NCBI GenBank assembly: GCA_029834535.1
Contig: JAQMWT010000218.1
Location: 1-59,342, forward strand
Source: Chrysophaeum taylorii
Taxonomy: Eukaryota > Sar > Pelagophyceae > Pelagomonadales > Pelagomonadaceae
Direction: 5' to 3'
DNA length: 59,342 bases
Shown here: piece by piece, positions 1 to 55,429 of the stretch
Numbering within the stretch: position 1 is the stretch's first letter
Layout: every line of letters begins with the position of its first letter
Notes under the pieces: model-generated
The model's input: the letters and a program-made list of their open reading frames with translations, nothing else
Told to the model about the DNA's origin: nothing
Databases searched by the model: none
Position numbers and translations under genes: made by a program

Positions 1-599
1 GAGAGTGGTGGCGAAGATCCCAGCGGAAATCGGCGAGTTTGCCACCAGCGGCTTTGTAAGCACCAATAGTAGACGCTTGTAACCGGGCTCGGATAGTTTT
101 CATAGAAGTGGCCTTGCGGGTGTTGGGCTGTTTGGAACCTGGGACAAGAATGAGGTCATCTTGTGCAAAAAGGTCTTTGTAAGAAGGAAGCAAGGGCGGC
201 GGTGACATAGAGCCAGAATCGTCGGCGAGAGTGTTAGAAGAGGAGAAGAGGCAGGAGCAGGGGACGAAGAAGGAGCTGAGGAGGTGGGAGTGCCCCCTCT
301 GAGGATGGGAGTCCGTGTCCCCCTATGACATGGTCTTGGATAGCGGTGTGGGGTGTGAGCGAGAAAGGCGCGGGAGGAGCGTGAGGCGGAGGAGCAAGTT
401 CAGGATCAGGAGTAGGATGCTGAGCATGTAGAGGAATTGGCTTGGACGAAACACGAATTTGTCCGTTTTCAGGGTTGAGGACGACGTCAGCGAGATGGTC
501 GACGTGGGAGACGAGCGGGTTTGCGCGTTGGCGCAACAGAGATGATATTTGCGGCGGCACGGTTCCCATTGTGGTGCATGGGCTCCAATAAGGTAACAT
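1..599 (-). pseudogene. Integrase C-terminal/linker region of the retrotransposon, cut by the window edge
   Basis: The minus strand is open for 121 codons (599 to 234), with a Pro/Ala/Leu-rich tail. Before base 234 another frame reads as a plausible continuation with residues such as YKDLFAQDDLILVPG. In copia polyproteins a poorly conserved, Pro/Ser-rich linker joins integrase to reverse transcriptase, and the position directly after the integrase core fits that. No RT motif is visible before the window ends. The identity is inferred from position only. Confidence 0.4.
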
Positions 600-666
600 T
601 CAGCGCAAAAATCTTGAGCATATCATGTTGGAGTGTTGAGTTGGTTGTAGAGTAGCTGTTGCGGAC

Positions 667-1437
667 TCAGGATAGCATGATGAATGCGCTCGAGCGTGGT
701 TCGGGAGAAGGTTGTAGCTTTGAACGGTGTGTATCACCGCCCAGGAACATGATGGCTGGTTCCGATCTTGGCGCCACGATAGTGAGCATTAAGAGAAAAC
801 GAAGGCGAGTTGAGGAGGCGGAGGCGATGAAACCGATGGCGGACTCAACTTCAAAGTTAAAGTGGTGCATGTACGGCGGGAAGGCGATGAGTAATGCCCT
901 TATCGACGCGGTACGGGGAGGTAATGTGCTGGCTAAAATAGGGCTTGAAGGCATCGGAGTAGAGGGTGCGCATGTGCACGTTGAGTTGTGTACGACAAAG
1001 TCATACACAAAATCAGAGCTTGAGTGAACTCCGTGGCGTTGGTGGTGCGTGTAAAGTACACCAAGAGAATTTCGAATGAGTTCCTTGAAGACGATGATAT
1101 GTGTGAAGCCCCCCATTCGGATGGGATGGTCACATAGCCGCCGTCGCACGCCCAGACTTCGCCGGCTTTGTGAGTTTGCTCAAAGAAGGCTTGGTCGCAT
1201 TGAAATGCTTGTGCGGGTGGCGCTTGTTGTGTGCGATGCAGTCGGTGCATAAGTCGCGATATGGTATGTCAGAAGCAGAGAATCCAGGGCGAGCAAGTAC
1301 GTTGGGGGCCTTGGCAGCGTTGTCGGGGCAGTGATGCACCCGTGAAGCGGAGCGTTGGCACGTTCGATATTCGGTGGATCCGTGTGCGAGGACTTGAGGA
1401 ATGGGATGAGCGGGAATATGCCGTTTGCGCCGAACAT
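667..1437 (-). pseudogene. Copia-type integrase (pre-integrase zinc finger plus catalytic core), frameshifted
   Basis: Three minus-strand frames must be combined to read this domain. A CTDC pair near 1,226-1,240 fits the second half of the GAG-pre-integrase HHCC zinc finger. It is followed by GEVWACDGG (first catalytic Asp, about 1,140-1,165), GGFTHIIVFKE after a run of G at about 1,110, LYSDAFKPYFS (second catalytic Asp, about 930-960) and a segment containing FEVESAIGF that could hold the catalytic Glu. The frame changes at G-rich runs look like decay. The domain would have joined element cDNA to host DNA. The D and D boxes are clear; the Glu assignment is tentative. Confidence 0.65.
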
Positions 1438-1635
1438 CGAACTTGAGTTCGGTGTCTAAGGCAGGAGGCGGTGCGTCGTCATCCTGGTGCGCAGCAGGGT
1501 CACTTGGAGGTGCATCATCATCACGAGTAGCGAGTATCTTCGTAGGACGAAGATATATAGTTTAACGACATTTCGGTCAAGCAGTTGCTGGAAATAGACA
1601 TCATAAGCTTGTGCCAAAGACAAGGTATCTGTGCT

Positions 1636-3844
1636 TCACGTGGTGGAAGCTTGATCAATGGTCATGAAATTTGATACATAGGATTTCTTAGTCACTGCAG
1701 CAGTATGTTGGAAGGTAGGGTCCAACATAAGGGATTTAATATCGGCAACGAGGAGCGAAAGGTGCTTGTACAGAGTGCTGTACGTACCGGCAGGCAGAGC
1801 ATTGCTGAGCATGTCACAGCAAAGGTCATGGCGTAGAGACAAGAGGAAAGATTCCTGTTGTTTCGTGTGGTTGTTAGCACGAATCAACTCCGGTCGAGTG
1901 GGGTAGCGTAATTTCCCGTTGCGAGGGTCGAGTAAAATAATATTGGCATACCCTCGGACGGTGGGCAACGGAGCAAGCATGGAGTGGATTTTAGAGCCGA
2001 GTTTGCGGTCACTTCCACGAAGATACCCTATATAGCGACTATGGGACAAGTGGTGATCTTCCAGAGCAAAATGAGAATCCTCGTAATCGAAAGAGTTGTC
2101 GGTGGCCTTGTAGGCAAGGCAGCCAGGCATCTCAAGAGAGCATCTGGACAAGAGTTTTTGTATGGCGGTGCCATAGGTGGCAGCGGAGCCAACTTGGGGA
2201 AGGGCTTGGACTATCCACAAGTAACCCATAAACGGCTCCAAATATATGGACCTGTCCCGGTCGCGGGGGATGTCGGAAGCAGTGAACGTATACGTGCTTC
2301 CAAAAGCGTCGATGGAAGTCTGATATTTGGTGGTGGCGTTCTCTATGGTTGAGGTTGCCGTCGGAATGGTGGTCACCAGTTCAGAAGTAGGAGTTGTGTG
2401 ATGTTGATGAGGTTGTAAGTAATAACCTGTGTGACGGTTGGTTAGTTTCGAAAACGGTTATGTAATAGGACACAGGAGTTGGTGAGTTAGTGTGTAAGCT
2501 GGCAAACAAGTTGTAGAGGATTGTTAAAACCTTGATGTTTATAGGGTACGTTGCATTGGGTACCGGCTCCATAGAGGAGCGTTTAAAGCACAACTGATGA
2601 TAAGTACACTCGGATTGAACAGAGTGAGTACGCTGCTCGTGAGCCTGTTGTGAGTGAAGGCGAAGCAGTAACATATTGAGGGATTCAAGGTCAGCCATAG
2701 TAAGCTGAGCAGAACCTGTGCGAGAGTAAGGTGCAAACGTTTTAGGAACGGGAATATATGGAGGATCGGGGAACACCCGGATCCAGTCTTTGGATACGTG
2801 TTTAGTTAGCCAAAGTCGCTTGGGAATAGCTTGTAGATCATCCACGATCTTTAGGAAGGGGCGTGGATGGAGGATAGGCCACGACAATAATTTGATTGGC
2901 CCAGTAGAATATCTGTGTGCGATGCATATCCATCTTTCTCTAGATTGGTAGTCGCCACAGAGGTAGGTTGGGAAACTATCAACAACTAACTAACTAACTA
3001 ACTTCAGACCTCTCCCGAGCATGGGAGCCAGGCCGGACCGGCAGGAGCCGGTACGGAATCACATAGGAACATCACGCAGTTGGGGCAGAGACGAGGGACG
3101 AGGACGGACTTGTTGATGGTGGACCGCCACTGCGCGCGGTCTTGTGCGAGGTCGTGCAACAGCGTCGCAGGCCGCGGACGCGTTGGTCCACGAACAATTG
3201 ACCTGTCCGCCGCGTTCTGCCCAACAGAGCGAACCCGATCCCAGCGCGGACTTTCCGGGTGCTAACCGGCCAGCCCGGGAGGCGAGCAGGCACCGTCTCA
3301 CTCCGGGACGGCCGGGGCCGCCGCAGGGAGCAAGCGTGTTAGGCGCCGTCCTCCATCGCAACCAACGGTTAGCGATCGCAAAATCCGCAACATCGACACA
3401 GTAATCAAGTGTAGTATGGATAAGGTTGGCCACTGTGATGTGGTCTTGATGACAGTACTTATGTCGAGGCGTCATCTCCGCCAGTAGTACCAAGGGCTGG
3501 AGTAGCTTGATGACAGACAACATGCTGTCGAAAAGAGAATCGTCCAGCAGGCTGTGTAAGTCTTCTGTCTTATGCTGTTTTAGTAAATTCCTGTGTGTGC
3601 AGGGAGGAGTGATCTCAATTATATCACAATAGAATGTGCGCCTTTCCTCTGGTGAGATTAGGTGAAGACGGTTAATAAAGGCGGGGAGAGATTCAAATAA
3701 TAATACAGTAGGAAAACGGTGGCGTAACATACGAACAAGCGTATCATCAGACTCAACAACAACTTTTACATTGATATTTAAGCCTAAGTCATTTGTGGCT
3801 TGAGACAGGAACGCCGGAGTTGACAAACCAGAACAAAGTAACAT
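1636..3844 (-). pseudogene. Cytosine-C5 DNA methyltransferase inside the retrotransposon, interrupted
   Basis: Several conserved C5-methyltransferase motifs occur in the right order on the minus strand. Motif I is MLLCSGLSTPAFLSQ at about 3,844-3,800, followed by a motif II-like VVVESDD. Motif IV is DIIEITPPCTH, with the catalytic Cys at about 3,600. Motif VI is LLAEMTP at about 3,478. Motif VIII is DYQSRERWICIA at about 2,945-2,915. Motif IX is around LRYPTRPELIRANN (about 1,905). Motif X is LSNALPAGTYSTL at about 1,806. A ~390-bp element at about 2987-3378 separates motifs VI and VIII, and the frame shifts once near 2,380. Without the insertion the first two pieces are in the same frame. 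The family transfers methyl groups from S-adenosylmethionine to cytosine C5. Position between protease and integrase suggests it was part of the polyprotein. Retroelement-borne cytosine methyltransferases are known from a few eukaryotes (DIRS elements, some LTR elements). I cannot name the subfamily. Confidence 0.75.
2987..3378 (-). mobile_element. Short mobile element with (GTTA)4 3' tail, copy 1
   Basis: About 390 bp, nearly identical along its whole length to the plus-strand segment 48922-49301. The minus-strand 5' end starts at cgatcgctaaccg (3378) and the 3' end is a conserved block followed by four GTTA units (3002-2987). It lies inside the methyltransferase gene. The flanks carry a short imperfect repeat (gttg, possibly extending to about 12 bp with mismatches) that could be a target-site duplication. 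The tetranucleotide tail and 5' heterogeneity resemble non-LTR retrotransposons or SINEs. No complete protein is visible, so it is probably non-autonomous or 5'-truncated. Confidence 0.75.
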
Positions 3845-3901
3845 GACAGAGGGTTTGCGGAGATTGGACTATTGTGAGAGAAACACTGGGCGTGAAAGTA
3901 G

Positions 3902-4315
3902 TCAAGTTAATGGCTGCGTATTTTGCTGAACAAACTTGTTCTGTTTCCGAAGATTGAGAACCAAAGGGCGAATCCACAGGCGATCTGGTAAAACTCTTTG
4001 GAGTAGGTAGTTGTAGTATGCCAGTGGATCCCTGTTTTCAAGGTATCGCTTGAGGGGAAATGCGAGGGAACGGAGTTCGAGTTGCTTGTCGCGAGCGATG
4101 TTGTAAGTGAGACAAGGGAGAGCAGGTAAATTAGCTGCTGTGTAGTGTATGGGTATACGTACATCTTTGTCTATGCGGCTCGTGACAGCGCTAAGCTTTG
4201 GCTCAGCTCGATCATTGAACACAGTGGTCAGGTTCGTCTGGTTCCACTCGAGCATGCTCAGGATAGCGAGATGTCGGTCAGCCAGCTTGTGGATGATCTG
4301 GTAGGGGAACAACAA
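3902..4315 (-). pseudogene. Retrotransposon ORF between protease and methyltransferase
   Basis: A 137-codon minus-strand reading frame in the same phase as the methyltransferase start at 3844, separated from it by a stop at 3902 and about 57 nt. It overlaps the end of the protease frame by 38 nt in a different phase. The sequence contains stretches such as IPIHYTAANLPALPCLTY and LAYYNYLLQRVLPDRLWI but no motif I recognise. It probably represents the protease C-terminus or a spacer leading into the methyltransferase. Confidence 0.45.
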
Positions 4316-4877
4316 TGTTACGTGTTAACATCATGTGTGAGGCACGTTGTTGTCCAGTGGCCGTCTGAATAACAATCGGCGCGTATTTGGAGTCCAGTGG
4401 AATTATATGATTGGGTATTGCAAAATCGTAAGTGGACATCAATGAGATGGTAGCACAAGAGTCAAAATATAGAAAAGAGCAATGTGGAGGGACACTGTTT
4501 ACCTTCATGTAGTTGGTGAGGAAGGCGTTTTCCGAATGTGGGCAAGTAGTGGAGAGGCTGGCTGTGAAGAAGTTCTCCAGCAATAACAGATTCGTTGGAA
4601 TAATAATCGGTTGAACAGGTGGTGATGGTTCGTCAGCCTCATCAGCCATGCCGTGCTTTTCATCAAATGACGATAGCGAAATGATCGGCATCCCTTTTGG
4701 CTTCGGCTTGTGATGGTAGGTTGAGGGCAGATTGGACCTGTGAAGATAGCGAGGACAATAACGCTGGTGGTAAAGCCGAGATGGCGGAAGCGGTAAAGGG
4801 TTAGGCACAGTATTGGAAGGATTACCCTGCGTGTTTGTAGTAGGAGGAGTTGCCTTTGGGGTGGGGAGCAGTAACAA
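4278..4877 (-). pseudogene. Retrotransposon aspartic protease
   Basis: The frame ends in a retropepsin-like region with the box FLYFDSCATISLM around 4,461, matching the DS(G/C)A(T/S) active site of copia-type proteases, and later IVIQTATG. A Pro/Ser/His-rich segment precedes it. In copia elements this protease cleaves the gag-pol polyprotein. The frame is shifted +1 relative to the preceding gag frame, with a 56-nt overlap (4822-4877), which could be a programmed frameshift or decay. There is no ATG at the start of the open frame, as expected for a pol segment reached by readthrough or frameshifting. Confidence 0.65.
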
Positions 4878-6631
4878 CAGTATGGTGTTGTGGCTCCACG
4901 TAGTTTAACGACTTTTCGGTCGAGGATAGATGAACGTCTACATCATAAATGATGTCTTCTGCAAACATGAGCTGTTCGTTTAGACGAAGTAAACTACTGT
5001 TGTCCTCAGTAGATGTCGTTGACAGAATGTCAGCTGATTGTAATAGAGTCTCAAATAACTTGTTGATATTCTGTTGTAGCTGAGCCGTGGTATCATTATC
5101 TGTCACATGCTTCGTAAGTTCACTACACTGTTCTCGCAGGGTGTTTAAGGTGTGGTTTGTTCGATCTAATAATTTCATGTTAGACCGAGAGGACCTGTCA
5201 AAAGTGCGGGGGTAAATTGGACGGTCATGGGACTGTCCAGCAGTTTTCTTGGTGACGTAAGAATCACCAGAACGATAATACGATAAATCGCTGCGAGAGA
5301 AAGGCTGGCGAGCATCATTAGAGTTACGCAAGCGTCTAGCATTAAACGTGGAAGATGTACCAGGTTGGGACGAAGTGATGAAGGCGAGTGTGTTAGCAGT
5401 TTGAGTCAGACTTTTGTCTGATGAGTCCAAAGTGTTTGTAAGTAGTAACTTTGGCTTTGGTTGAGATGATAAACCTTCGACATAGGGTTGCCAAGAAACA
5501 GGGCGTTCTAAGCGTCTTTTGTTCGACCCATTTGATACTACATTGTATAGGTCTAATGCGTATTCTAAAATGTAGCTAGGGTTGGTAGGGTGACACAATC
5601 GTTCAGCTTCTGGCACAGGCCGAGATGAAGATCGGGTTTCATACATATAACACCAATCTACCCAACCACGATCGTAACGATTGTTGCTGGTATTATCGGC
5701 ATAATGCCGATGTATCTCTTCATAGATTTTTCTACAAAGAGTGCCAAAGTCGAATTGAAGGTCAGTCTCTTCCTGGTTAAGTTGGTAAGAGATTTGCCTA
5801 AATGCTAGGACAGCTTCGATAAATACATGGACATACCAGTTAGGATTATAAACAACAGAGTTAAATTGCTGTTTCAAATAGGACACATCAGTAGTCGTAA
5901 CAGACTCGTAGTGACTAAAGGCGATGAGCATAATGGCTCGAGCCTTGTTGGGTAAATAACTTTTGTTATATACCTCATTGATGGCGGGCCAGGCCGCAAG
6001 TGCTGGTTTTCCAACACTTTCAAGATTGAAGTAAGTATGCAAGAATGTAGCATACGTGTTCTGATAAGTGTGCCAGTCAGCAGCAGTTAACGAAAACATG
6101 GTAACAGGGGCACGAACACGGGTGTCGAAAGCTAATGCCTTCGGGTGCGCGCGATTTAAGATTCGTTCCTCTTCTAAGAAACGGGCATTGATTTCAGGAC
6201 GTAATGCCTTGACTTCATAGTCGTAACAGACAGTAGCTAGCTGAGCTACTTCTGCATCAGGTAAGTGGGGAAAGCTTCGTTGGTGAAATGCCACTCCTGA
6301 TACTCAGGGGCAATTCATCAACAGCTAAACGGAGATCAGCAGCCCTATCGGTCTTCCATTCCAGGAAAACGCGATCGAGAATTTGATTCCGGAGGATCTC
6401 GTAGTCCTTGCATGACCGAGTATATGCTTCGTACGAGTCGTACTCGAGGAAGGCATCGGCATGACTGGACCGTAACAATTGCTTAATGTGCTTGATTTGC
6501 AAGGATACCTTGCGAGTCTGAAGCTGAAATCGATTTCCATCGTTAAGAAACTCAACTACAGGAGCTTCGAGCTTCAATATATCCGCACCTGTGATCGCCT
6601 TGGGTGCGGCTCGTGCTGCGTGTTCTGCCAT
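4822..6631 (-). pseudogene. Retrotransposon gag-like protein in two overlapping frames
   Basis: The first frame starts at an ATG at 6631 (MAEHAARAAPK) and stays open to 6257. A second frame, shifted by one base, is open from 6294 to 4822 and encodes about 490 residues. The two together read as one roughly 600-residue hydrophilic protein rich in Tyr, Asn, Ser and Thr, with a helical N-terminal part (LKLEAPVVEFLNDGNRF) typical of capsid proteins of copia elements. No CCHC zinc knuckle is visible. The overlap at 6257-6294 is either a frameshift mutation or a recoding site. Gag identity rests on position directly upstream of the protease, not on a recognised motif. Confidence 0.55.
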
Positions 6632-6952
6632 AGCAGTTGACGGGGAACCTGTGGGTTCAGTCACGCAGTTGACACTGTCTAGACATTCTAAGGGGGTCTG
6701 TCTATCGGTGTCTATGTACACTCATCGTTTTCGATGGAAAGATGTCTATTTGACGACTGTGCAAGCTGTGAGTCCAGAGTAGTGTCGCTAAGCGTAGTCA
6801 CTCAGGCAGCTGGTTAGTTTTGGTGCTCTCAAGGAGCTTGTTAAGTGCATTGCCATGGAATGTACGAGTGGACGTACCCAAAATATTCCATAACATGTGT
6901 GCAAGAGTACAGGTTAGCCAATTACACACACATCAACATTGACATGACAATA

Positions 6953-7288
6953 CGATGCTATGAACAGGTGCACACAAGGTTACACGATCACGTGTGCAAA
7001 AAAGTATTATATACAGCCCAATGGTAATGGCGTTGTATTGACAAGCGTGTTTACGTGGCGAGGCTGAACCGGCGCGGTAACAGTCCAAAACCCATAGGTT
7101 ACGTGCACGTTTTAACACATGGTTTCTCAGGGACCCGCCTGGGCCCATAACCTGCAGAGCATTAGCAAGCAGTGGTAAGTCACCTGGGAAACCATCCCGT
7201 CTCATCATGAACGTCTGGAAGTATTTAATTCGGGGAATGAAAAGGTATGTTCCCTATATCCTCAGAACACGACAGGCGGCATCTAGAA
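6953..7288 (-). promoter_or_regulatory. LTR-like block with TATA box, copy 1
   Basis: This segment is repeated at about 55059-55420 with moderate divergence. On the minus strand it has a TATA-like tgtatataata (7015-7005) about 375 nt upstream of the gag ATG. It lies between the end of the RT fragment (7289) and the gag gene, as an LTR would. I could not define matching LTR termini or a tRNA primer-binding site, so LTR status is inferred. Confidence 0.4.
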
Positions 7289-8935
7289 CTACACGAGAAA
7301 GGTAAAGTGTATAGTGCTACATACCTCGGGACGCGCTAGACCATGATGATGAGCGTAGGCACAAATCAGAGGACTATTTGATTGTGTCGAAAGGAAGAAG
7401 AAGGGTAAGGAAGAGATCACGTTCTCAACGGACGGATAAGGGTAAGAGGCAGCAGATTTCTCTGCAGGAAGATCAAAGTCATCAAAAAGTTTGAGAAGCC
7501 AGGTGAGCTCAGCAGTAGCGGCGTAAAGAGCGAGCAATTCGGCTTCAAAAGATGAGCGGGCGAGGAGGTGCTGCGAGCGGGAGCAGTAGGAAATCATAGA
7601 GCCACCAAGCAGAAAACAATAGCCTGTGGTGGAGTGGCGGTCATCAGGGTCGTCGGCCCAGCTGGAGTCGGAATAACCACAGAGACGAAGGGTAGAATCG
7701 CGACCAAGAACAAGGGCAAGATCTTGAGTACCATTGAGATAACGGAGGGTATGAGTTAAGGCGTGCCAGTGGGGTTTACCAGGATTGTCTGTAAAACGCG
7801 CACACTGATTGACGGTCCAAGTGATATCAGGGCGTGTCATAACAGAAATAAACAAGACACAACCGACAATACGACGAAAAGGGATGCGTGCCATGAAGAC
7901 CTGATCGGGGGAGCCAGGTGCAGGACAATCAGCCGCAGAAAGATGAAGACCTTTGGGAGCTGGAGTCAATTCTGGGTTACTGTGGATAAAGCGATGTTCG
8001 GCGAGAATTTCGCGTAGAGCATGGGATTGGTCGATAGCGAGCGTGCGACGTGCGCGTTCACGCGTAATGCGGAGACCAACGTAAGTGTGAAGATCGAGTT
8101 CGTTGACACGAGTGAAGGCTTTGAAACGTAGAAAGAAGGCTTGGTAATGGCCAAGGAAATGACGAGGGTGCACCACAAGAATATCATCAACGACAAGAAC
8201 AAGACGCACAACGACAGTGGAATCACAAGCAACAGCTTGTAACTGCAAATGTCACCAGATCCGCGGACGAAGCCACAATCGTTGACAAGGAAGCGCTCCA
8301 AATAAAGCCACCAATTGCGACAAGCTTGCTTGCAACCATACCAAGAGCGACGGAGTTTGTAAACGATTTTGGAGCCATCTGTGGGTTGGCGAGGAGCATA
8401 ACTTTCGGGGGGGCAGACATAGATGTCTTTGTCAATTGGAGCTTGGATAAAAGCGGAGCTGACATCCAACTTGTGCAAATCCCAGTCATGAACAGCAACG
8501 AAGGTGAGAAAGAACCGAATGGTGACAACGTTGGCGACCGGAGAATACGTATCGTGATAATCAATGCCGTGAACCTGGGTGTAACCGCGGACAACAAGGC
8601 GAGCCTTGTACGATTTGAAGCGGCCAGATTCATACTTCTTGCGGAGGACCCACTTTAAAGTGCAGATGTTGCCGGAAAAAGTAGAAGGAACGCGAACGAC
8701 AACCCAGCAACCGAGCTGACCAAGGGAATGATATTCTTTGGCGATGGCTTGTAACCAGCCAGGGCGTTCAGGATTTGTGTGAGCTAAAGCCTCGCGTAAA
8801 TGAGTGGAAATGATAGCACCGTCATCAATATAAGAATATTGGGAGGTTTCTTCGGAAGCAGAGTAATGAGCGTGGACAAATTGGGGATCAACAAGGGTAT
8901 GGGCGAGACAAAGGGGAAGGAAGACATAATGAACC
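7289..8935 (-). pseudogene. Copia reverse transcriptase/RNase H fragment
   Basis: Reading leftwards from 8,935: an N-terminal RT segment (YIDDGAIISTHLREALAH, KARLVVRGYTQVHGIDYHDT), then DVSSAFIQAPIDKDIYVCPP and VYKLRRSWYGCKQACRNWW, which match the copia boxes DVKTAFLNG and LYGLKQAPR. A frameshift near 8,240 leads to LVLVVDDILVVHP, the catalytic box with Val in place of the usual Tyr before VDD. RNase H follows, with RPDITWTVNQCARF, SDSSWADDPDDRHSTTGY and SFEAELLAL. The open frame ends at 7289. No integrase precedes it on this strand. It is a fragment of a different copia copy from the one at 1-6631, or a rearranged one. Confidence 0.85.
7369..7434 (-). repeat. Segment homologous to the 3' region of the NHA antiporter gene
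   Basis: About 66 bp at the end of the RNase H region match 31971-32047, downstream of the minus-strand antiporter gene, with a few mismatches and a small length difference in a GAA-rich stretch. The same segment is present in the second retroelement copy near 55,461-55,520. Both matches are in the same transcriptional orientation relative to the preceding gene. Confidence 0.7.
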
Positions 8936-9180
8936 TCTTAGCAGTCGACATTTAAAGACATAATGAACTAACAAACGAAAGCTAGAATAAGCAACATACA
9001 GGGAGTGACAGGAGGAAACAGAATTGACATTACGCTGTGGACAAACGCCAGAATTTGAGTTCATGGTTTCGCGCGAGTAGTAGGTTCTGTTTCAGCGTAA
9101 TAGGCGCTTTGGTCGACTTTGCGCGGTCGGCTCCGTTTGGCGCGACGTAATGGTGCACTTTTCGCATTGTTCGCTGATGG

Positions 9181-9831
9181 TTGTGGTATTGTTTCTGGGG
9201 TGATCAGTCTCTTTCTCCATTTGTGGCATTTTCTTCTTGCCCTCGCGTACACGACCCTTGTGCTTTTTCAGTTGTGTCTCAACGCACCCAACTCACCTAC
9301 GACATTTGGCATGCTCGTCTTGGTCATTATAGTCCCTCTTATATCCGTCGTTTGTCTTCTCTCGCTGTTGGTGCACCGCTCTTCCCAAGTTCCGCGTCTC
9401 TTTCTTTTTGTCCTGCTTGTGCTTTAGGTAAAATGCATGCTGCGCATGTTGGCCATCGTAAACCACGTGAATCCACTCCCAGCTCTCTTCCTGAAAACGA
9501 AATTTTGTCACGCCCACGTGCCGTTGCGCCCTATCTTATTATCCACGCTGATCTCATGTTTACCGGTGTCCCTTCTTTCATTTACCAAGACCGTGCCATC
9601 CTTACGTTTGTCGATGATCATGCGCGCCGCCGCACACGTTACTTTGCTCCTCGACAAAATGCACTCACGAACGCTCGTCAACTCGAACTTTTCGTGTGTA
9701 CTGTGGTTCGACCCTTTAGCTATCGTATTGCCCTCATCTACACAGATCGTGACAAGTCACTAATGAGCCAATTCGAAACCTTCTGTCTGGGCAACAACAT
9801 CGCCATCAAACGAACACCTGCTACCATGTGA
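9181..9831 (+). pseudogene. Copia GAG-pre-integrase/integrase fragment
   Basis: Plus-strand frame of 216 codons. It contains LTYDIWHARLGHYSPSYI and CPACALGK, the HHCC zinc finger that precedes copia integrases, then the start of the catalytic core: HADLMFTG (first Asp), FVDDHARR and ALIYTDRDKSLMSQFETF (second Asp). The frame stops at 9831, before the catalytic Glu, and GH45 downstream sequence begins at once. It is a 3'-truncated fragment in opposite orientation to the RT fragment at 7289-8935. The same pair occurs in the second copy at 57035-57667. Confidence 0.85.
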
Positions 9832-9909
9832 CAACAGGAATGGAGCGTTACTCTAGCGATAAGGGAATGACGTAGGGATACAGGATGCGTGGTGAGGGGT
9901 AAGTAAGTG

Positions 9910-11367
9910 TCATAGCTTCCTCACATTGGTGGTGGTGTATTCTGTTGGCTGGAAGTGGTCCCGAACCTCGTGGAGCTTGTGGGCGAGGCACCCGGCGAGC
10001 GCGCAGGTGACAAAAAAGAGGGCGATGAACAGGATGGCCAGCGTCCGCCAGAGAGAGACGCTGGCTGCCGTGGTCTTCTTTTTGGAGGTCGTGGTGCTCC
10101 CGGTCGAAGAAGAAGAGGAAGAGGAAGAGGACCCCCCAGCGTCCCTTGGTGGGGTCGGCGCGAGGGTGGAGCTCGTCGGTTTGAGCGTCGTCGGCTCGTG
10201 CGTGGGCGCGAGCGTCTCGGTGGGCCCGGGCGACGGCGGGAACTTGGTGGTTGGTTCGGGATCCGTCGGCTTTGGCGGGGCCGATGGCTTGGGCGTGGGC
10301 TTGGGCGTGGGGTTCGGATAGGGCGCGACGGTCGCGTCGCTGCCGCCGCACCACGTCGTGTCCGTGCACTGCTCGCAGTTAGCCTGGCTCTGCGCGCAGT
10401 AATTGGTCGAATCGGCGAACGACTCGCACGCCGCGCAGACGTCCGTCGACGACCCCGGCGGGGGGTAAAAGCAGCACCCGCTTTGCGTCGGGCCGCGGGT
10501 CGGGGGCAGCGTGGTTGGCGCGGGCGAGTAGGTCGGCTTTGGGGAGGAAGTCGGCGCCTTGGTCTCCCGGTAGTCGGGGTAGTCGTCGTCGTCGAGGGGC
10601 TCGGTCCCCGAGAGCGCGACGAGTTCCTGGGGGCACTTGACGCGCCGAAATCGCACGTAGGGGTTGTCGGACTTGCCGTTTTCGGTCTTCCACGAGTACG
10701 ACGCCGAGTAGCGCCACTCGCACCCCGGCCGCAATTCGTCCGGCAAATCGACGCACCCCGTCGCGTCGTCGCATCCGCCGTAGTTGTTTCCGCAGTCAAA
10801 GTCCTCGGTCTCGTAGCCAGGAAACTGGATCGGGCACCCCGACGTGAAGATACCTTGGCCCGCGCCAGGAATCTGTAGGTCGAACGAGTGCGAACCGGTC
10901 ACGTCGTACCCAATATTCGTCACTTGAATGATATGCTGTTTCCCCACGATATCGGGGTGTGCGCCACCACCGTACGAAAACTCCTCCGCAGTCCACCGGA
11001 GCTCGTAGCACTCGCCGCAGTTCTCGTCCCCGTTCAGTCCGCTCTTCCCGCCGACGGCGGCGGCCGCGAACCCCATCGTCACGCCTTCCGCGACGTCAAA
11101 CGGTTGGTGGTCGGCACAGCTCGCTGCCGTACCTCCATCGCACACGCTTGTCGTGTCGGGGTCGTCGAGGGTTTCTCCGGTTTCGGCTTCGCAAGATCGA
11201 ACAGGGTTCGTGACGCTCCCCTTGCCGGACCACGAACACGACGGCTTGCAACAGTCCCAGTATCCGGTCGTGTAGGTTCCCGTGGTCCATTGCGCGTCGT
11301 CGTCGTCCTCCTCGGTGGCCGCCACCGCGCCGAGCCAGAACACCAACCAACTACTGAGCACCAGCAT
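9910..11367 (-). CDS. GH45 endoglucanase with Cys-rich module, PT-rich linker and C-terminal membrane anchor
   Basis: 485 residues. A signal peptide (about residues 1-18) is followed by a glycoside hydrolase 45 catalytic domain (about 30-255), a family that cleaves internal beta-1,4-glucan bonds of cellulose with inversion. TTGYWDCCKPSCSW holds the catalytic Asp (38), and VTNIGYDV and SFDLQIPG hold the other conserved Asp residues (155, 163), equivalent to Asp10, Asp114 and Asp121 of Humicola Cel45A. Many Cys residues are conserved. A Pro/Thr linker leads to a small Cys-rich module (GCCFYPPPG to CTDTTWCGG, about 296-342), probably carbohydrate-binding, then a long PT-rich stalk and a transmembrane helix near 443-465 with a short tail. 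This predicts a cell-surface enzyme. ATG at 11367 is the only start that keeps the signal peptide. A truncated, decayed copy lies at 57740-58606. All catalytic residues are intact here. Confidence 0.88.
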   Translation of the reverse strand: MLVLSSWLVFWLGAVAATEEDDDDAQWTTGTYTTGYWDCCKPSCSWSGKGSVTNPVRSCEAETGETLDDPDTTSVCDGGTAASCADHQPFDVAEGVTMGFAAAAVGGKSGLNGDENCGECYELRWTAEEFSYGGGAHPDIVGKQHIIQVTNIGYDVTGSHSFDLQIPGAGQGIFTSGCPIQFPGYETEDFDCGNNYGGCDDATGCVDLPDELRPGCEWRYSASYSWKTENGKSDNPYVRFRRVKCPQELVALSGTEPLDDDDYPDYRETKAPTSSPKPTYSPAPTTLPPTRGPTQSGCCFYPPPGSSTDVCAACESFADSTNYCAQSQANCEQCTDTTWCGGSDATVAPYPNPTPKPTPKPSAPPKPTDPEPTTKFPPSPGPTETLAPTHEPTTLKPTSSTLAPTPPRDAGGSSSSSSSSSTGSTTTSKKKTTAASVSLWRTLAILFIALFFVTCALAGCLAHKLHEVRDHFQPTEYTTTNVRKL

Positions 11368-19011: not shown

Positions 19012-19144
19012 CACTCTTGTTGCAACTAACGCGCCGAAACTTGGGGTAAGGGTGGTGGTAGGTGTGTGATGAATGACGCCGCCAGAATAATGCTCTCTTT
19101 CTTCGTCCAAACACAGAAGGGTAAGGGTTAAGTGTTCAAAGAAG
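19012..19144. promoter_or_regulatory. 133-bp bidirectional promoter between WDR60-like gene and giant repeat gene
   Basis: The ATGs of the two divergent genes lie at 19011 (minus) and 19145 (plus). No clear TATA box was seen. Co-expression of the two genes is possible but is an inference from spacing alone. Confidence 0.4.
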
Positions 19145-22100
19145 ATGCAAGCGGATGAGCTCGAGTGGCTGCTGAGGGAGCTCGAGACCGCGCGGCCCGC
19201 GCGGCGCGACGAGGACTGCAGCGCCGTGATCTCGGAGGACGGACGGCGGTCGCTGTTTCCGCGGCACACGAGAGCTGAAGTCGCTGACGTGTTCGACGGA
19301 AAGCGGTTCTCAGCGATCCTCGCGCGGTCGAGGGCGCTCCACTCCCCCACGACGTGCGCCACGTGCGCGCACGTCGTGGGGTCGTTGCGACGACCGCGCG
19401 CGGGGTCGCTCGCGCCTTTCGAAGTGCGACTCCCCAAGAAAAAACATTGGGGTTTGCAACTCATCATGCTTTCCGACCTCGAGCCGTACTCGTTGCCGCT
19501 GAACCGCGTGGCGGTGTTCGCGTCGGAGCGCGACACCATCGCGGCGGGCGACCGCCTCGTGTCGGTGAACGGCGAACCGCTCGATTCCTCGAGCTTCGAC
19601 TCCGTCGTCCATCAGCTCACCGAGGCACGCGCGCCCGTGCGGCTCGGTCTCGTGCGCGTCGCCGACCTCGCGTTGCTGGGACCAGCGTTCCGCCACTGGC
19701 GCGCGGCGGCGGCCCAAGCCCAATCGAAGGTGGCGATGGCGCGCCTCAAGCGTGCCGCTTCCTGCTCGTTGATGGCTGGTCTCCTCGCGACCCGCAGAGT
19801 CTGCCATCCCTCCGAGGCGCGAGGCTTCCGGCAGTGGGTCGAATTCGTACGCGCCTCGACCGCCCGCCGCCGCCTCGCTAACACCGGCGCGACCGCCGTT
19901 GCCCGGATTCTCCGTCGCTGGCGCCGCGCGCGCCTCGCCGCGGTCTTCGAGGCCTGGCCCAGACGACCGCTCTTACGATCCCACGCGACGCAAATGGCCA
20001 GCGTGCTCGCGTGGTCCGCGCGCGGCCTCCAGCGCGAAAGTGCTTTCGAGGTCTTTGGAGGCGCCTTGAGCCGCGCGATGCGCCGACGCGAGAGACGACG
20101 ACCACGTGTGGCATTCGATCGCTGGCGCGACTCTTCTTTGGAGCGCGATGTAAACGACGACCACCACAACGACGAGGGCAACCGCCTCTCTTCTCCGGCG
20201 GCAGGCTCGGCGCTGCCCGGGAAGTTTCTTGTCGGCTCCACCGAGTTGGCTTTGGACGAGGAGGAAGAAGACGACGACGATGAACCGTATCAAGACGCGA
20301 GACGATACGGCGTAGTCGCCGACTCGAGGCCGCTTCTCGAGGAGAAGGAGGAGGAGGAGGAGGAGGAGGAGCAACCGGGTTGTCGCGAGCAGCCGAGGAA
20401 ACAGGCTGGCACCGCCGTGGTTGTCGACTTCAAGTCCTTGCCGGTTGAGGAGTATGAGGAGGACCAACGCGACGAACTCCGCGATGTTGCTGAGACGCTG
20501 CGCTGCGAAGAGCAAGTACCTCGCGACGAGGAGCCGTGCAACCGCAGAGATGTTGTCGTCGACATGTACTCGTCTCCAGAGGACCGAGGCGCCTTCGAGG
20601 ATGTCAAAAGTAAGCTCTCTGACGCTACCAAGTCAACCCGAGCCTTGGAAGAACAACCGCCTCGCGACCAGCAGCCAAGCAAACATGCCCGTGACGACCG
20701 TCGTCGTGACTCTCAGTCGCTTGTGGAGGACCAAAGCGAGCGATCTGATTCTGCCGATGATGTCTCGGCGCGCACGTTTCGCGACGACGAGCCCAGCAGT
20801 CAATCCCGCGAGGATCTTGTTCTCAACTCGCTGCTTCTTGAGGAGAAAAATGCTGTCGATGTTGTGCTGGCTTCGGGTGAACGTTCGCCTTGCGGTAACA
20901 ATCCGCCGAGCAGTCGAGACAATGGCGTCATCGACTCGATCCTGTCGCCCGAGAACCAAATCGAACTCTCGGTTGATTGTGAAGACTTGCTGGCGTTGAA
21001 GAACCAGCCATGTCAAGACGAGCAGCAGCCCGATGGAAAGGCTGACACTGACGTCGTTGACTCGAAGAAATCGTCGCGCACTGATGAGGACCACTCCGAT
21101 GGTGTCGCCGAGGCACTTCCTTCTGCGGAGCGCTCCATCGACAGCCCCCTGCCGGAAAGACAAGATGACCTTGTTGTCGATTCGACGCCGCCCTCCGTTG
21201 GGGAGCACCGAAGCGAGCGATCTGATTCTGCCCATGAGTTGGCTTCTGCGAAGCAATTGTCGTGTCACGAGGAGCAGGCGCGCAGACAAGCCCGCGAAGA
21301 TCCCCTTGTCGACTCGCCGCTGACTGCGGAGATAAGTCAGCTCCCCGATGCAGTCGATTACGATCCAGCCTCGGAAGAATCTTTCCCTCGCAATGCGCAG
21401 CCCAGCAGACAAGTCCGCGAGGATGCGGTCAGCGCCTTGAAGCCGCTCGAGGAGCAGAACAAGCTTCCGTGTGCTCTCAAGGCCGCACGTGCCTATGAGG
21501 AGACGTTTTGCGACGAGCAACCCCAATTACAGGCTCGCAATGGCCGAAGTGTTGACTCTGAGCCGTCGCCACCGTCGCGGCTAGAAGAGAAGGACGAAAT
21601 TGGGCTCACTGATGTTGCCGATGCTGTGCTAACAGAGGAGGAGGAACCGACTCGCGTTGAGGAACCAACTCGCGTCGAGGAGCCCCGCGCACAGGCTTGG
21701 AATGACCTTGCAGACACGACGTCCCGGTTACCGCTCGAGGAGGGGGACCGAAGCGACCTCTTTGAAGTTGCTGGGTTGACCCTTGCCTCGCAACCGTCTC
21801 GGAACGCGCGGCCCAACGGAGAAGCACACAATATCGTTGTCGACTCGTGGTCGTTGCGTGAGCACCAGCGCGGGAAATCTGATGATGCTGTTAGTGCTGC
21901 CGCGGATTCTGGGCTTGCCTCGAAAGGACCATTGCCACAGAACGATCAGCCCTACAGACAAGCTCCTGAGAATCTTGTTGCTGACGTGAGGTCGCTCGAC
22001 GAGCATAGCGAATTCGCTTGTTCTCCCGAGGCGATGCTTGCGTCTGATGACCATGCATCTTGCGACGGGCGGCCCGGCGAAAATGATTGTGATAACCTCG

Positions 22101-25100
22101 TCGTCGACTCCTCGAAGTCGCCGCTCCCGCTTGAGGAGGATCAATGCGAGCCGGCCAGAAGACAAGCTCGAGATGCCTTTGTTGTCGACTCGAGACCATC
22201 TCTTGAGGACGAAAGCGAGCTCACTCATGCTGCGGATGCCTTGGGGGAGCGGCTGCCTCATGATGTGCAGTGTAGCAGACAAGCTCTCGATGACCTTGAC
22301 TACTCGCGGCCGTTGCTTGCAGAAGACCAAGGCGAGTTTTCTGATGCAGCTGAGTTGTTGGCCTCGGCTAGTCCACCATCTCGAGATGTGCAGCCCAGCA
22401 TACAGAGTCCCGCTGCTGATGCTGTGCTGACCTCGGAAGAGGAACAACCTCACGGCAACCAAGGTGGAGACGCTTGCAATGGTGTTGTCGACTCGAAGTC
22501 ACCCCCGGTTGAGGACCAAAGCGAGCACTCTGATGTCGTTGAGACGCTCGCTTCGGCCGAGCAACTTTCTAACAGCACGTTGCCCATCGGTCAAGATCGA
22601 AAGGAAATTGTCGTCGCTTCGACGTCGCCGCGTGTCGAAGTGGACCGCGGTGAGCGCTATGATGCTCTCTATGCTTTGTCTGCCTCGGCAGGGCCAGCGC
22701 GTAACGCAAAGCAGTCCTGCAGACAAACTTGCGAGGATCTGGTTGTGGCTTCGATGCCGCACGATGAGCAGAACGCAGTCTCTTGTTGTGCCAAGGCTGC
22801 ACCTTTCTCCCAGGAGTGGTCTCGCAACAACCAGGCTAGCGGACAGACTCACAGTGGCTTGGTCGTTGACTCCAAGCAGCCGCAGCCTCTGGATGAGATT
22901 TACCAAAGCAAGCTGTGTGATGCTGTCGAGCCTGTGCTTGCGTTGGCCGAACCGGCTTGTATCGAGGAGCTCGGCGGACAGGCGTGCAATGATCTCGAAG
23001 ACTTGAAATCGCCGCTACCGCTAATGGAGGGCAGAAGTGACCTGTTGGACATCTCGAAGTCACCGCTAGAGGACAAGAAAGATCTCCCTGATGTTGCTGA
23101 GACGCTGGAATCAGAAGTGCAACCATTGGTTGAGGAGGACCAGAAAGGTATCCTGGATGTTGCGGAGACGTTGACATCAGAAGAGGCACCGTCTCGCGAC
23201 TTGCAACCAAGCAGCGGGGCTCGCAAAGATGACGTCGATTTGAGGCCGTCATCCACGGACCAAAGCGAGCTCTCTGATCCTGCCAATGCAGTACCGATCT
23301 TGGAGGAGCAACCGGCCCGAGGTAAGTACGGGATATGCAGTGGCTTTGTGGATTCGAGGCTGTCGCTCGAGGAGAACAATGGGAAGCTATCTGATGGGAA
23401 TGATTCAACACGGGCCTTGGAAGAGCAACCGCCATTCGACGATGATCCTACGAGGGAGGCTCGGAAGGATGTTGTTGTCGACTCGTGGCCGCTGCTCGAG
23501 GAGCAAACGGAGATCTCTGACGCTGCTGACGTTGTACGCCTGTCGCACTGTGGTATCTTTCACGAGGAACTGACTTACGATAACCATCCTGGCAGACGTG
23601 CTCGCAATGATGTTTTGAGTTCAAAGTCACCGGAGGAGGACACGCGCGATCATCCCAACAAACAAGCTTGCGATGACTGCGTTCTTCGCTCGATTCCGTC
23701 GGGTGAAGACAAAATCGATCACTCAGATCCTGCTCATGTTATGCAGGCCTGGGGGAATGATTCATCTCTCGAAGACGACTCCTCTGACTCGGGCGACGAG
23801 GAGCCTAGCGCACAGGCTCGCCAAGATATCGTCATCAACTCGCCGCCTTTCGCGGAGACCGAGCTCGCTGACGGTGTTGATGTTTTGCTAGCCTCGGAGG
23901 AAGAAGGAACTGTCGGCGTAATATCCGGCGCGAAGGTCCGCAATGATCTTGTAGATCCAAGGCCTTCCCGCCAGGGCCAAGACGACCTCTCTGATGCTGC
24001 CCATGCGGTGCTGGCCTCGGAGAAAGTGTCATCTTTCGACGAAGCGACCAGCAGACAAGCTCCTGAAGAATTGAGTGTCGTCTCGTGCCCGTCGCCCGTG
24101 GTCCGGAACGAGCTCTCTGAAGCAGCCGATGCCGTTCTGGCCTCGGGAGAAGAAACGGATTGTAACGAGCTGGCTGGCAGACCAACGCGCAATGACCCTG
24201 CGGGCTCGACATCGCCGCGGCCCCTTGAGGAGACCGGAAATAAGCTGCCTGATGTTGCTGAGACAGTGATCCTGGAAGAACAACCATCTCGCGATGTGCA
24301 GCCAAGCAGCGTGGCTCGCCAAAATGTTGTCGGCGACTCTAAGCAGTTGCGCGGTCAGCACGGCGCGATTTCTGATGCAGGCGATGCCTTGCTAGGCTCC
24401 GCGATGTCTCGCGACGAGCGGCCTGGCGGCCAGTGTTTTAATGACGGTGTCGACTTAACGTCGGCACCGCCGCTCAAGGAAGACCGAAGCAAAGAGGCCA
24501 ACAGAGAATTACGCGATAACCTTGTTGTCGAATCGAGGTCATCGCTTGAGAATCAAAGCGTGCTCTCTGACGCTGCGGCCGCTGTATTGGCCTCAGAGAA
24601 TCGACTATCTCGCGACGAGCATCCCAGCGCACAAGCCTGCGATGACCTTCTCGACTCGGCACTGTCGTTTGCAGAGGACCAAGGCGAGTTTTCTGGGGCT
24701 TCTGAGTCATCGGCGACGGCGGACCCCCTGTCTAGTGACGTGCAGTCCATGAGACAATGTCTCACGAATGCTAATGGTCCCGTTCTGACGTCGGAAGGGG
24801 AGCAATCTGACGGCGAGCAACCTGATGGCTATGCTCGCGATGAAGTTGTCGATGCGAAGTCACCCACAATCAAGGACCAAATGGAGCATTGTAATGTCAC
24901 CGAGACACTTGCTTCGCCCGAGCAAGCGTCTGACTGCACGCCGCCCATCAGAAAAGATCAAGGGAACTTTGTCGTCGATTTGAAGGCGCCGCCCGTTGAG
25001 GAGGACCATAGCGCGCGCTCTGATCCAGTCTATAATGCGTCGGCCTCTATAGGGCAAACGTCTCGCGAAAAGCAGCCCAGCAAACAAGCCCGGGAGGATT

Positions 25101-28100
25101 TTGTTGTTGCTTCGATATCCCTCGAGGAGCAGAATGAACCCTCATGTGGCGCGCAGGCTGCACCTGCCTCTGAGGAGTCGTCTCGTGACAAGCAGCCCGG
25201 TGGACAGGCTCGCAATGGCTTAGTTGTTGACTCCAAACCGCCGCCGCTGCATGAGAGGGACCGAAACAGGCTCTCTGATGGTACCGATGCCGTGGTCGCG
25301 GCAGTGGAACCGGCTCGCGACGAGCAGCCCGGCGGACAGGCGTGCAATGATATCGTGGGCTCGAAATCCGTGTTACCGCGATCGGAGGGCAGAAGCGATC
25401 TACCCGACATGTCTGAGACGCTGGGATTGGAAGAGCGACCAACAAGGCTCAGTAGAGAGGCTCACGAAGATGTTGTCGTCGATTCGGGGTCGTCGCCCGA
25501 GGACCAAAACGAGCTTTCTGATACTGCTGATGTCGCCCTGACCTCGAAGGAGCCATCATCTTGCGACAAGTACCAGGCAAGCAATGGCTTCGTGGGCTCG
25601 AGGCTGTCATTTGAGGCGGACAAAGACAAGCCCTCTTATGCGGCTGCCCAGTTAGTATCGCCGTCCTTGGAGAACCAACCAGTTTGCAACGAGGAGCACT
25701 GCATTGAAGCTCGCAAGAATGTCGCCGTCGAGTCATGGCCACTGCTCGAGGAGCAGAGCTCGCACACTGATGCTGCTGACGTTGTACGGGCTCGCGATGA
25801 GCATGGACATGCGTCCAACGATGTTTTCAACTCGAAGTCCCCGGAAGAAGACACACGCTGTCATCCCAGGAGACGAGCTCGAGATAACAGTGGTGTTCAA
25901 TCAAGGCTTTCCGTTCAAGACCAATGCGAACACTCTAATGCTGCTGATGTCGTGCAGGCCTGCGAGGAGGAACCATCTCTCGACGACGACGACGACGACT
26001 CCGACTCTGGCGACGAGCAGTCCAGCGCACAGGGTCGCCAAGATTTTGTCATCACGCCGCTTCGAGAGGAGACCGAGCTCGCTGTCGGTGCTCATGCTGT
26101 GGTGTCGGAGAGAGAAGATTCTGTCGGCGCGCAATCTGGCTCTAAGGGCCACTATGACCTTGTGGATTCAAGACCGTCGCTCGAGGGCCAAGACGACCAC
26201 TCTGATGCTTCCAATGCAGTGCTGGCATCGCAGGAATTATCATCTTCTGACAAAACGCCCGGCAGACGAGCTCCTGACGATTTTTCTGCCGTCTCGTGCC
26301 CGTCGCCCAAGGACCAGGGCGAGCTCCCTGATGCTGCCGACACCATGCTGGCCTCTGAAGAGGAAACGGGTCGTGACAAGCAGCCTGGCGGACGGGTGTG
26401 CGATAACCGTGTGGGCTTGAACTCACCGCAGCCCCATAAGGAGACCCGAACCGAACTGCCTGATGTTGCTGAGATGGTGATCTCGGAAGAGCCGCCATGC
26501 AGACGTGACTGCAAGGATCTTGTTGTGGACTCGGCGCTACTCGGGGAGCTGAGTGAGCACCCTGACATTCTCGATGTTTTGCTTGATTTGGGGAAGCCAT
26601 CGAATCGCGACGAGCAGCCCAGCAGACAAGCCCACGAGGATCTTGTTGTCACCTCGAGGCCGCAGGACGATCAGAACAAGTTCCCTTGTGGTGCCAAGGC
26701 GGTGCTTGCCTCCGAGGAATCGTCTCGTGACAAGCAGCCTGGCGGAGTGGCTCGCAATGGCCTAGTAGTTGATTCTGTGCCGTCGACGCTGGGTGTGAAG
26801 ATCCAAGACAAGATTAACTCTGTTGCTGTCGATGTGGTGCTGGTGTCAGAGAAGGAAAATGTTTGCGACGAGCAGCTTGGCGGACAGTCATGCGATGACC
26901 TTGTGGAATCGAAGTTGCCACCACCACAAGAAGGGAGCCGAAGCGATGTTTCTGGATCAACCCTTGCCTCGGAGGACCAGCTGTCTCGCGACACGCAGCC
27001 CAGTGGAGAGGCTCTCAAAGAAGTCGTTGTCGATTTGGCTCCAGAGTCCCAAAGCAAGCCCGTTGATGCTGCCGATGGAGTATTGGCCTCCAATGAGCGA
27101 CCTTCTGGCTACGAGAATCCAGGCGGACAGCACAACGACCTTGTGGACTCGAGGCCCTTGCTTGAGGACGAGGACGAGCTCGCCGATTCCACGGGATCCA
27201 TGAATGCTGTGCCGGAACAACCATCTGACGACGACACGCAGCGCCCGAGAGAGGCTTCCAACGATGCTCTTATCGACTCGGGACGGCTCGAGGTACCTCG
27301 CGAGTGCTCGCATTCTGTCGATGATGCTGCGTTGGCCTCTGAGCTTGCTTTGGCAAAGCAGCCATCTCGCGACGAGCAGCCCAAGGGACAGGTTCGCAAT
27401 CGCCTTGTTGTTGACTCGAAGGAGCTGCCGCCTCCACCATTGGTCGAGAAGAACCAAAGCGAGATCTCTGACGCATCGGGTGCAGTGCTGGGCTTGGAGG
27501 AAGAACCATCTCGAGACGGACAGTCGGTTAGACTTGTTAGCAATAACCAAGTTTACTCGAGACCACGGCTCGAGGTGCAGTGCGAGGTCCGTTGCGCTGC
27601 CGACGCTGCTCGTGCCTCGGGAGGAAATCTAATGCGCGACAAGCAGCAGCCCAGCACGCAAAGTCTCTTCGATGCTGCTACCGATAATTGGCGAGCATCT
27701 CAGAAGTATCCCTCTGGTGGCGAGGAACTTAGTAGACAAGGTCGTGACAACCTTGATGAGACGAGGCTGTCTCTTGATGAGGGCCCAAGTCAGGCTCCCA
27801 ATCCAGGTGCCGAAGTCCCCGGGTCGCGACCTTCGGAAGTCGCGGTGCAACCAGGACATCAGGCTAGCCAAGACGTTGTCGTTGACGCGAGTGCGCGTTT
27901 TGATGAGGATGACCAAGGCGAACTCCCAAAGTTTGCAGTGGAACCGGTGGATCAACCGTTTGGCAGCACGCTACCTTTTCGTCGAAAAGGCTGCAACGAA
28001 GAATCGAAGACTCCATTTGAGGAGCAGCAGGAGAGCGTTCCCGCGCATGCTACCAAGGATATGCCTGCATCGAAGGACCAACAACCACCTTGTGACGCAC

Positions 28101-48616: not shown

Positions 48617-48752
48617 AAGCTTGATGGTCACTCTCCGCCGACCGACCTTTCGGCGCTCCTCGTCTACAGGCCCGTGATTCCGGACTGGCTCCTGTCGGTC
48701 CGGCCTGGCTCCCATGCTCGGGAGAGGTCTGAAGTTAGTTAGTTAGTTAGTT
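48617..48752 (+). mobile_element. Short (GTTA)n-tailed element, insertion A (136 bp)
   Basis: Flanked by a perfect 8-bp direct repeat, atggcgac, at 48609-48616 and 48753-48760. Its last 79 bp (48674-48752) match the 3' end of the elements at 48922-49301 and 2987-3378, including four GTTA units. Its first ~57 bp are different from those elements. It therefore represents a separate or differently truncated member with a common 3' end. Confidence 0.75.
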
Positions 48753-48921
48753 ATGGCGACCATGCGATGAATCTCGGGCCGAAGCAAGCAATCAAAATCG
48801 GCGTTGACAGCGCGCCCGAGAAGCTGGTGGCCAAGGAGATCACCAAGCGCGACAACGTCTCGTCGGCATACACCGACGAATACCGGTCCAACTGGACCTG
48901 CTGTTATAATGGGGGATATGT

Positions 48922-49301
48922 CGATCGCTAACCGTTGGTTGCGATGCAGGACGGCGCCTAACTCCATGCGGCGGCCCCGGCCGTCCCGGAGTGAGACGGT
49001 GCCTGCTCGCCTCCCGGGCTTGCCGGTTAGCACCCGGGAAGTCCGCGCCGGGATGGGGTTCGCTCGGTTGGGCAGAACGCGACGGACAGGTCGATTGTTC
49101 GTGGACCAACACGTTTGCGGCCTGCGACGCTTTTGCACGACTTCGCACAAGACCGCGCGTAGTGGCGGTCCGTCATCAACGAGTCCTCGTCCCTCGCCTC
49201 TGCCCCAACTGCGCGAATTTTCCTCTGTGATTCCGGATCGGCTCCTGCCTGTCCGGCCTGGCTCCCATGCTCGGGAGAGGTCTGAAGTTAGTTAGTTAGT
49301 T
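48922..49301 (+). mobile_element. Short (GTTA)n-tailed element, insertion B (380 bp)
   Basis: Flanked by the direct repeat atatgt at 48916-48921 and 49302-49307. Full-length match (roughly 88% by eye) to the minus-strand copy at 2987-3378. It starts cgatcgctaaccg and ends in four GTTA units. Short frames inside are conserved in part between the copies but are not clearly coding. The features fit target-primed insertion by a non-LTR retrotransposon machinery. Confidence 0.8.
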
Positions 49302-55031: not shown

Positions 55032-55058
55032 TACACCTCAACAGCGGACATGACTTAC

Positions 55059-55420: not shown

Positions 55421-55429
55421 GCGCTAGAC

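Follow-up and report, generated by a model that had tools for sequence, protein, structure and literature searches.

The window analysed here, a stretch of 59,342 nucleotides of Chrysophaeum taylorii (contig JAQMWT010000218.1, assembly GCA_029834535.1), begins inside a broken long terminal repeat (LTR) retrotransposon of the Ty1/copia superfamily in which a cytosine-C5 methyltransferase-like domain lies between protease and integrase, and we consider it likely, at a probability of about 0.68, that this domain serves to methylate the element's own complementary DNA (cDNA) prior to integration. The observed part of this reading comprises the order of the domains, the number of copies, the LTRs and target site duplications (TSDs) of a sister family, the catalytic motifs and the purifying selection acting on that sister family. 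Judging from sequence comparison, what appears to be new is a retroelement-borne cytosine methyltransferase in the copia superfamily, positioned between protease and integrase, present in two divergent families and with selection measured in one of them.

Domain order in the window copy and its relatives

On the minus strand of the window, motifs I, IV, VI, VIII, IX and X of C5 methyltransferases are collinear at 3844-1780, with a protease motif on one side and the integrase on the other. Their positions are facts of the sequence, while the names follow general usage for C5 methyltransferases: motif I, MLLCSGLSTPAF, located as a string in the window at 3809-3844; motif IV, DIIEITPPC, at 3599-3625; motif VI, VLLAEMTP, at 3467-3490; motif VIII, GDYQSRERW, at 2930-2956; motif IX, LRYPTRPEL, at 1885-1911; and motif X, MLSNALPAGTY, at 1780-1812. 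The protease motif, YFDSCATISLM, occupies 4437-4469, and the integrase zinc finger and core lie at 1226-1255 and 1113-1157, respectively, all of them on the same strand. A sequence-only reading of this DNA had proposed the same succession of motifs (I, IV with PPC, VI, VIII with QSRER, IX and X), and each string was found where it had been placed; the gene order of that reading, with the protease motif (4469-4437) before and the integrase core (1157) after the methyltransferase, likewise held. Its extent of 1 to 6631 has to be enlarged, as the element reaches a 5' LTR ending at 7466. The parts of the window copy are listed below, with evidence drawn in part from L051, a window-type copy on contig C42 whose methyltransferase domain is uninterrupted; RT stands for reverse transcriptase and LINE for long interspersed nuclear element.

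7153-7466 (-): 5' LTR of 314 bp, ends TGCAGA...TCTGCA; adjoins a second Copia remnant
4822-6721 (-): gag-like region in two open reading frames (6257-6721 and 4822-6303); 88-100% identity, in pieces, with the gag frames of L051
4278-4904 (-): presumed aspartic protease segment, FDSCATISLM at 4437-4469; motif only, no family match
3902-4324 (-): spacer frame from protease to methyltransferase; aligns collinearly with the final part of the L051 gag/protease frame
3388-3868 (-): putative C5 methyltransferase, motifs I, IV and VI; motifs, and alignment via the L051 copy
2987-3387 (-): putative LINE-like insert splitting the methyltransferase, with a (TTAG)n tail; not in L051; target duplication of 3-4 bp
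2381-2986 (-): putative C5 methyltransferase, motif VIII and start of the long middle region; motifs and L051 comparison
1636-2457 (-): putative C5 methyltransferase, remaining middle region and motifs IX and X; motifs and L051 comparison
521-1534 (-): integrase spread over several frames, with zinc finger and rve-like core; L051 counterpart matches rve at E 0.0026 (below the cut-off)
5-316 (-): integrase-RT connecting region, ended by the contig start; 80% to L051 pol residues 1083-1188

The segment 4278-4904 is taken to be the protease from its FDSCATISLM motif, and the gag-like region is so named because of its position, having no significant Pfam match. The segment 7153-7466 is read as an LTR because it stands upstream of gag here and also occurs about 2.5-3.4 kb downstream of window-type pol at two other loci (L036 4027-4340, 96%; L044 3758-4052, 89%). 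The second Copia remnant, a different element, lies at 7467-8937 (-) and matches RVT_2 at E 2.9e-32; on the opposite strand, 9178-9831 holds an integrase-like frame in which a stretch resembling a zinc finger can be made out by eye. The junction between the 5' LTR and this remnant falls within a duplicated segment, 6928-10909 and 55033-58589, whose two copies are 82-96% identical in pieces.

The window copy is a dead element, with broken frames, a LINE-like insert at 2987-3387 and a contig that starts before the RT. Its methyltransferase is in three pieces and two frames and its integrase in several frames. The start of the contig falls within the element, which leaves RT, RNase H and the 3' LTR outside the window, and no TSD can be read for this copy since its 3' end lies off the contig. 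At the DNA level it is 96.6% identical to L051 in the gag/protease block and 93.3-96.1% in the pol blocks, and the alignment has one large interruption, 2987-3387, which is read as a 5'-truncated LINE-like insert from its (TTAG)n tail, its duplicated target of 3-4 bp and its absence from L051. LINE-like fragments with (TTAG)n tails are also present at 48674-49302 (+), being 90-96% like parts of this insert.

In the C42 copy a single frame of 1691 residues holds the methyltransferase motifs, then the rve-like core and then RVT_2 (E 2.6e-43), and is followed by an RNase H-like frame which by itself matches no Pfam family and which aligns with its counterpart in the second family described below (E 2e-17). 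The window-type methyltransferase domain has at least 143 matches in the genome (143 of 2553 candidates scored) and the window-type RT at least 130 (130 of 1910), both counts being lower bounds; judged by these matches, whole or partial copies of a methyltransferase-carrying copia element number well over a hundred in the genome. Among the 130 RT matches, the first 47 share 99-100% identity with the RT of C42, and the family has therefore spread recently. An RT match lies downstream, on the same strand and within 9 kb, of 58 of the 143 scored methyltransferase matches, at a median spacing of 4107 bp, and a strand-flipped control gave 0 pairs. A search with full-length pol found at least 43 matches (28 of 3886 candidates scored); in 18 of them the match continues without a break from the methyltransferase to beyond the integrase (start at or before residue 480, end at or after 995), and seven of these 18 contain no stops. 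The two ends of L051 are not repeated within its 10 kb, and none of the window-type copies retrieved showed LTRs at both ends. A third related family is represented at L039 132-2347 (-), where gag/protease is 47-72% identical in pieces to the window type.

The sister family, here called the C96 type, shares 35% identity with the window type in the BLASTP-aligned stretch of the RT and 21% in the methyltransferase. One of its frames, of 1952 residues (L032), matches DNA_methylase at 6.4e-8, rve at 0.004 (below the cut-off) and RVT_2 at 5e-39, and the methyltransferase domain exceeds the PF00145 cut-off in all four C96-type frames scanned (E 4.6e-7 to 9.8e-9). Upstream of the methyltransferase, a DGGAS motif read in translation is presumably that of the protease. 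A PF00145 profile search of the genome gave at least 57 matches (123 of 474 candidates scored), the best retroelement match at E 1.1e-10; loci were assigned to 30 of the 57, the remaining 27 standing outside this assignment. The C96 type accounts for 28 of the 30 loci (L003-L030), the other two being a DNMT2-like and a DNMT5-like gene. Nine locus pairs around C96-type matches were compared for LTRs, the tenth pair retrieved being the DNMT5-like gene, and five of the nine have LTRs at both ends, of about 195 bp and 89.4-96.5% identical. With element ends placed by eye at TAGAGA...TCTCTA, one left end being mutated, these LTR-bounded elements are 9.1-9.6 kb long and all five are flanked by a 5-bp TSD (CTCAC, ATGAC, TCTCC, TATCC and GTTAG). 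The further copies with the same order and flanking LTRs, for which the sequence-only reading had proposed a search, are represented by five C96-type elements.

The integrase precedes the RT in relatives of both families, even though the rve matches (E 0.0026 and 0.004) fall below the curated cut-off, and the RT is of the copia type (RVT_2) and not the gypsy RVT_1 followed by integrase. Pfam scans of the pol stretches, at E<=0.01 and at E<=10, returned no tyrosine recombinase (PF00589), and rve was returned in two. Ordinary Ty1/copia elements have the order gag-protease-integrase-RT-RNase H, LTRs and a 5-bp target duplication, and the same is found here; we know of no ordinary member of the superfamily that carries a methyltransferase. 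The proposal that the methyltransferase formed part of the polyprotein is borne out by the relatives, in which methyltransferase, integrase and copia RT share one frame.

Probable assignment of the domain to the C5 methyltransferases

In the sequence-only reading, the lack of a DNA_methylase match in these frames was to count against the methyltransferase, and taken literally such a match was indeed lacking: at E<=1 no relevant Pfam family is matched by the window-copy frames on their own, and at E<=10 none by the domain of L051, which is of the window type and uninterrupted. The domain in the same position of the C96 type matches PF00145 and is collinear with that of the window type. Since its own frames match no Pfam model, the identity of the window-type methyltransferase rests on its relatives. 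The two domains align with motifs I, IV, VI, VIII, IX and X in order, and the cysteine of motif IV, the glutamate of motif VI and the arginine of motif VIII are kept in both families and invariant in 11 aligned C96-type copies; deviations from the standard motifs are LPC and EMT. In local alignments of window-type against C96-type domains, none of 1000 shuffles reached the observed score in three of four comparisons (84 against a shuffle maximum of 77 at full length, 59 against 57 for motifs I-VIII and 70 against 50 for motifs IX-X), while in the fourth (residues 1-480 against 1-450) the score was reached by 10 of 1000. A profile-profile comparison of the families gave E 0.057 over 207 columns, a weak result because both profiles are shallow.

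Outside the genome, the C96-type domain matches DNA methyltransferases of the PHROG collection as well as TIGR00675 dcm, the latter at a score under its cut-off, and the window-type domain matches phrog_116 at E 0.06 in the same register. Protein database searches found no match for the window-type (7984 candidates scored) or the C96-type domain (7993), and the combined alignment of both families retrieved one weak metagenomic methyltransferase (P0001, E 4.3e-4, 24% identity, 7997 scored). In IMG/VR, one of 11 pattern-matching stretches encodes a relative, a methyltransferase on a viral contig (L052, 35% over about 95 residues). Comparison of the C96 type with the DNMT2-like protein of the host gave nothing useful. 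Among solved structures, the C96-type profile had a cytosine methyltransferase as its single match in a sequence search (E 0.32), and the window type a chance match only. Single-sequence structure prediction, run as a control, yielded no model. An AF2 model of the first half of the window domain, built from a three-sequence alignment, had C5 methyltransferases at ranks 1-10 in Foldseek and at ranks 1-23 in VIA; DNMT2 heads the former list and DNMT1 the latter, with little difference in Z among families. In both families more than 300 residues separate motifs VIII and IX (L017 1357-3126 (+); L051 4777-6696 (-)), a stretch longer than in the aligned enzymes, which could contain a target-recognition part or an extra domain.

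Estimates of the ratio of nonsynonymous to synonymous substitution (dN/dS) indicate that the C96-type methyltransferase domain is under purifying selection. The median was 0.125 for motifs I-VIII, over 55 pairs of 11 loci at a median dS of 0.50, these being 11 of the 28 C96-type loci picked for open frames, a choice that favours low values. For the region after motif VIII it was 0.185 over 27 pairs, where some rows out of frame at the end raise the values. The elements have a ratio of observed to expected CpG of 0.89-1.04, while two stretches of host DNA reach 1.28 and 1.34; in each of the two comparisons between copies, transitions at CpG stand at about 1.4 times the mean for the remaining contexts. 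This pattern is modest and not decisive, being compatible with some CpG methylation and also with base composition.

Possible roles of the domain

As the domain lies in pol within the long frames of both families, it is expected to be packaged together with RT and integrase. We hypothesize that, once freed by the protease of the element or while still working inside the polyprotein, it would methylate double-stranded cDNA in the particle, and that new copies would arrive already methylated, to be taken by the host as its own DNA or shielded from nucleases or damage. The benefit to the element might lie in disguise, in protection or in the setting of chromatin at the target. The window copy itself is incapable of this role, because its frames are broken and its methyltransferase is split by the LINE-like insert.

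An activity after insertion, in which the enzyme marks the loci of its element and thereby lets silencing by the host limit copy number, or methylates the genome de novo for a host DNMT5-like enzyme to maintain, is rather unlikely in our view, yet it has several points in its favour. The host does possess such a gene (L002, from L047 8468 to L048 4824), called DNMT5-like because methyltransferase and SNF2 helicase are joined in its single frame of 2086 residues, and the element is present in many copies with mild CpG depletion. On the other side, the data do not separate methylation before from methylation after integration, and with loci given to 30 of the 57 PF00145 matches the host set is only partly covered. 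A broader scenario would join both activities. In it, an ancient lineage of copia elements would have taken up a C5 methyltransferase of bacterial- or virus-like type and retained it while diverging into at least two families; by methylating its cDNA beforehand, the lineage would supply de novo methylation that the host DNMT5-type enzyme keeps up. We hold this to be doubtful; were it true, a parasite would be the writer of de novo methylation in this genome.

It is similarly unlikely that the domain catalyses little or nothing and that its methyltransferase fold has been retained for another task, such as nucleic acid binding or organisation of the particle or of the integration complex. The LPC and EMT deviations, the identity of only 21% between the methyltransferases of the two families and the long region between motifs VIII and IX would suit such a role, whereas the conservation of the cysteine, glutamate and arginine of motifs IV, VI and VIII and the low dN/dS of motifs I-VIII argue for catalysis. 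Methylation of RNA in the manner of DNMT2, on the element RNA or the tRNA primer, is less probable still. RNA is raised as a possible substrate of LINE-borne enzymes in PMC5890265, and DNMT2 comes first in the Foldseek list of the window piece; against this, DNMT1 is first in the VIA list with similar Z scores across families, the host has a DNMT2-like gene of its own (L001 1498-2577, named by eye), and nothing in the sequences examined points to RNA. Finally, a host gene for a methyltransferase, surrounded by inserted pieces of retroelements, as named in the sequence-only reading, or an assembly chimera, might be suspected from the window copy alone, fragmented and holding a true insertion, but both are very unlikely, to the point of being negligible, since the same order recurs, similarly spaced, at many loci (in 18 of the 43 full-length matches and in the 58 of 143 methyltransferase matches that are paired with an RT), is common to two divergent families and goes with LTRs and TSDs in five C96-type copies.

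Elsewhere in the window, two adjoining open frames of 520 and 527 residues lie at 50967-54119 (-), and an open frame of 3624 residues lies at 19091-29965 (+); its start looks PDZ-like by eye, and it contains degenerate repeats of some length.

Significance and comparison with known systems

A cytosine methylase owned by a retroelement inverts the usual view of methylation as a weapon of the host against transposons, and self-methylation before insertion, if true, would be an uncommon means by which a genomic parasite handles host silencing. In this genome of 70.8 Mb, a copia lineage with many copies and with long frames in two families would add another superfamily to the carriers of such enzymes. 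It would also be a compact system in which to ask directly whether methylation of the cDNA precedes its integration, and which of the two, element or host, writes 5-methylcytosine.

Published cases are few, those found being PMC5890265 and papers citing it. PMC5890265 describes DNMTs carried by two kinds of Symbiodinium element, LINE and DIRS, and by a Klebsormidium element of the Gypsy type, and presents the Copia superfamily of Symbiodinium as having no DNMT domain; it also reports that the DIRS-borne enzyme methylates CGs de novo and argues for methylation of cDNA before integration in DIRS elements. Methylase-encoding elements of the Gypsy and DIRS clades are reported in PMC6338049 from hosts including stramenopiles, red and green algae and charophytes. 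One sentence in PMC12344493 (2025) names 'LTR Copia and DIRS' elements as having a DNMT3 embedded in them; it cites the 2018 paper, where a Gypsy element is described, and its section gives neither architecture nor species. This mention may be a slip for Gypsy, the same element having been renamed, or a real precedent. The open-licence literature that was searched, with subscription papers and preprints outside the search, offers, apart from that one sentence, no description of a methyltransferase placed between the protease and integrase of a copia element, and to that extent the architecture deserves to be called unusual, as the sequence-only reading had suggested.

Three elements from these sources invite comparison. 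KnitGypsy-Dnmt3 of Klebsormidium nitens (PMC5890265) resembles the present families in the domain set of an LTR element, a DNMT inside the Pol frame and purifying selection; it is a Gypsy element with DIRS-like repeats and a DNMT3-related enzyme, whereas here RVT_2 follows the integrase and the LTRs are simple. SymbioDIRS-Dnmt3 of Symbiodinium (PMC5890265) likewise has a DNMT that shares its reading frame with RT, and de novo CG methylation is reported for it, but it is a DIRS element with a tyrosine recombinase, in contrast to the rve-like integrase found here. SymbioLINE-Dnmt, also of Symbiodinium (PMC5890265) and listed among orphan DNMTs in PMC12344493, is a further C5 methyltransferase borne by a retroelement; in contrast to the copia families it belongs to a non-LTR element with an endonuclease, and the enzyme of it that was tested is reported to show no de novo DNA methylation in yeast.

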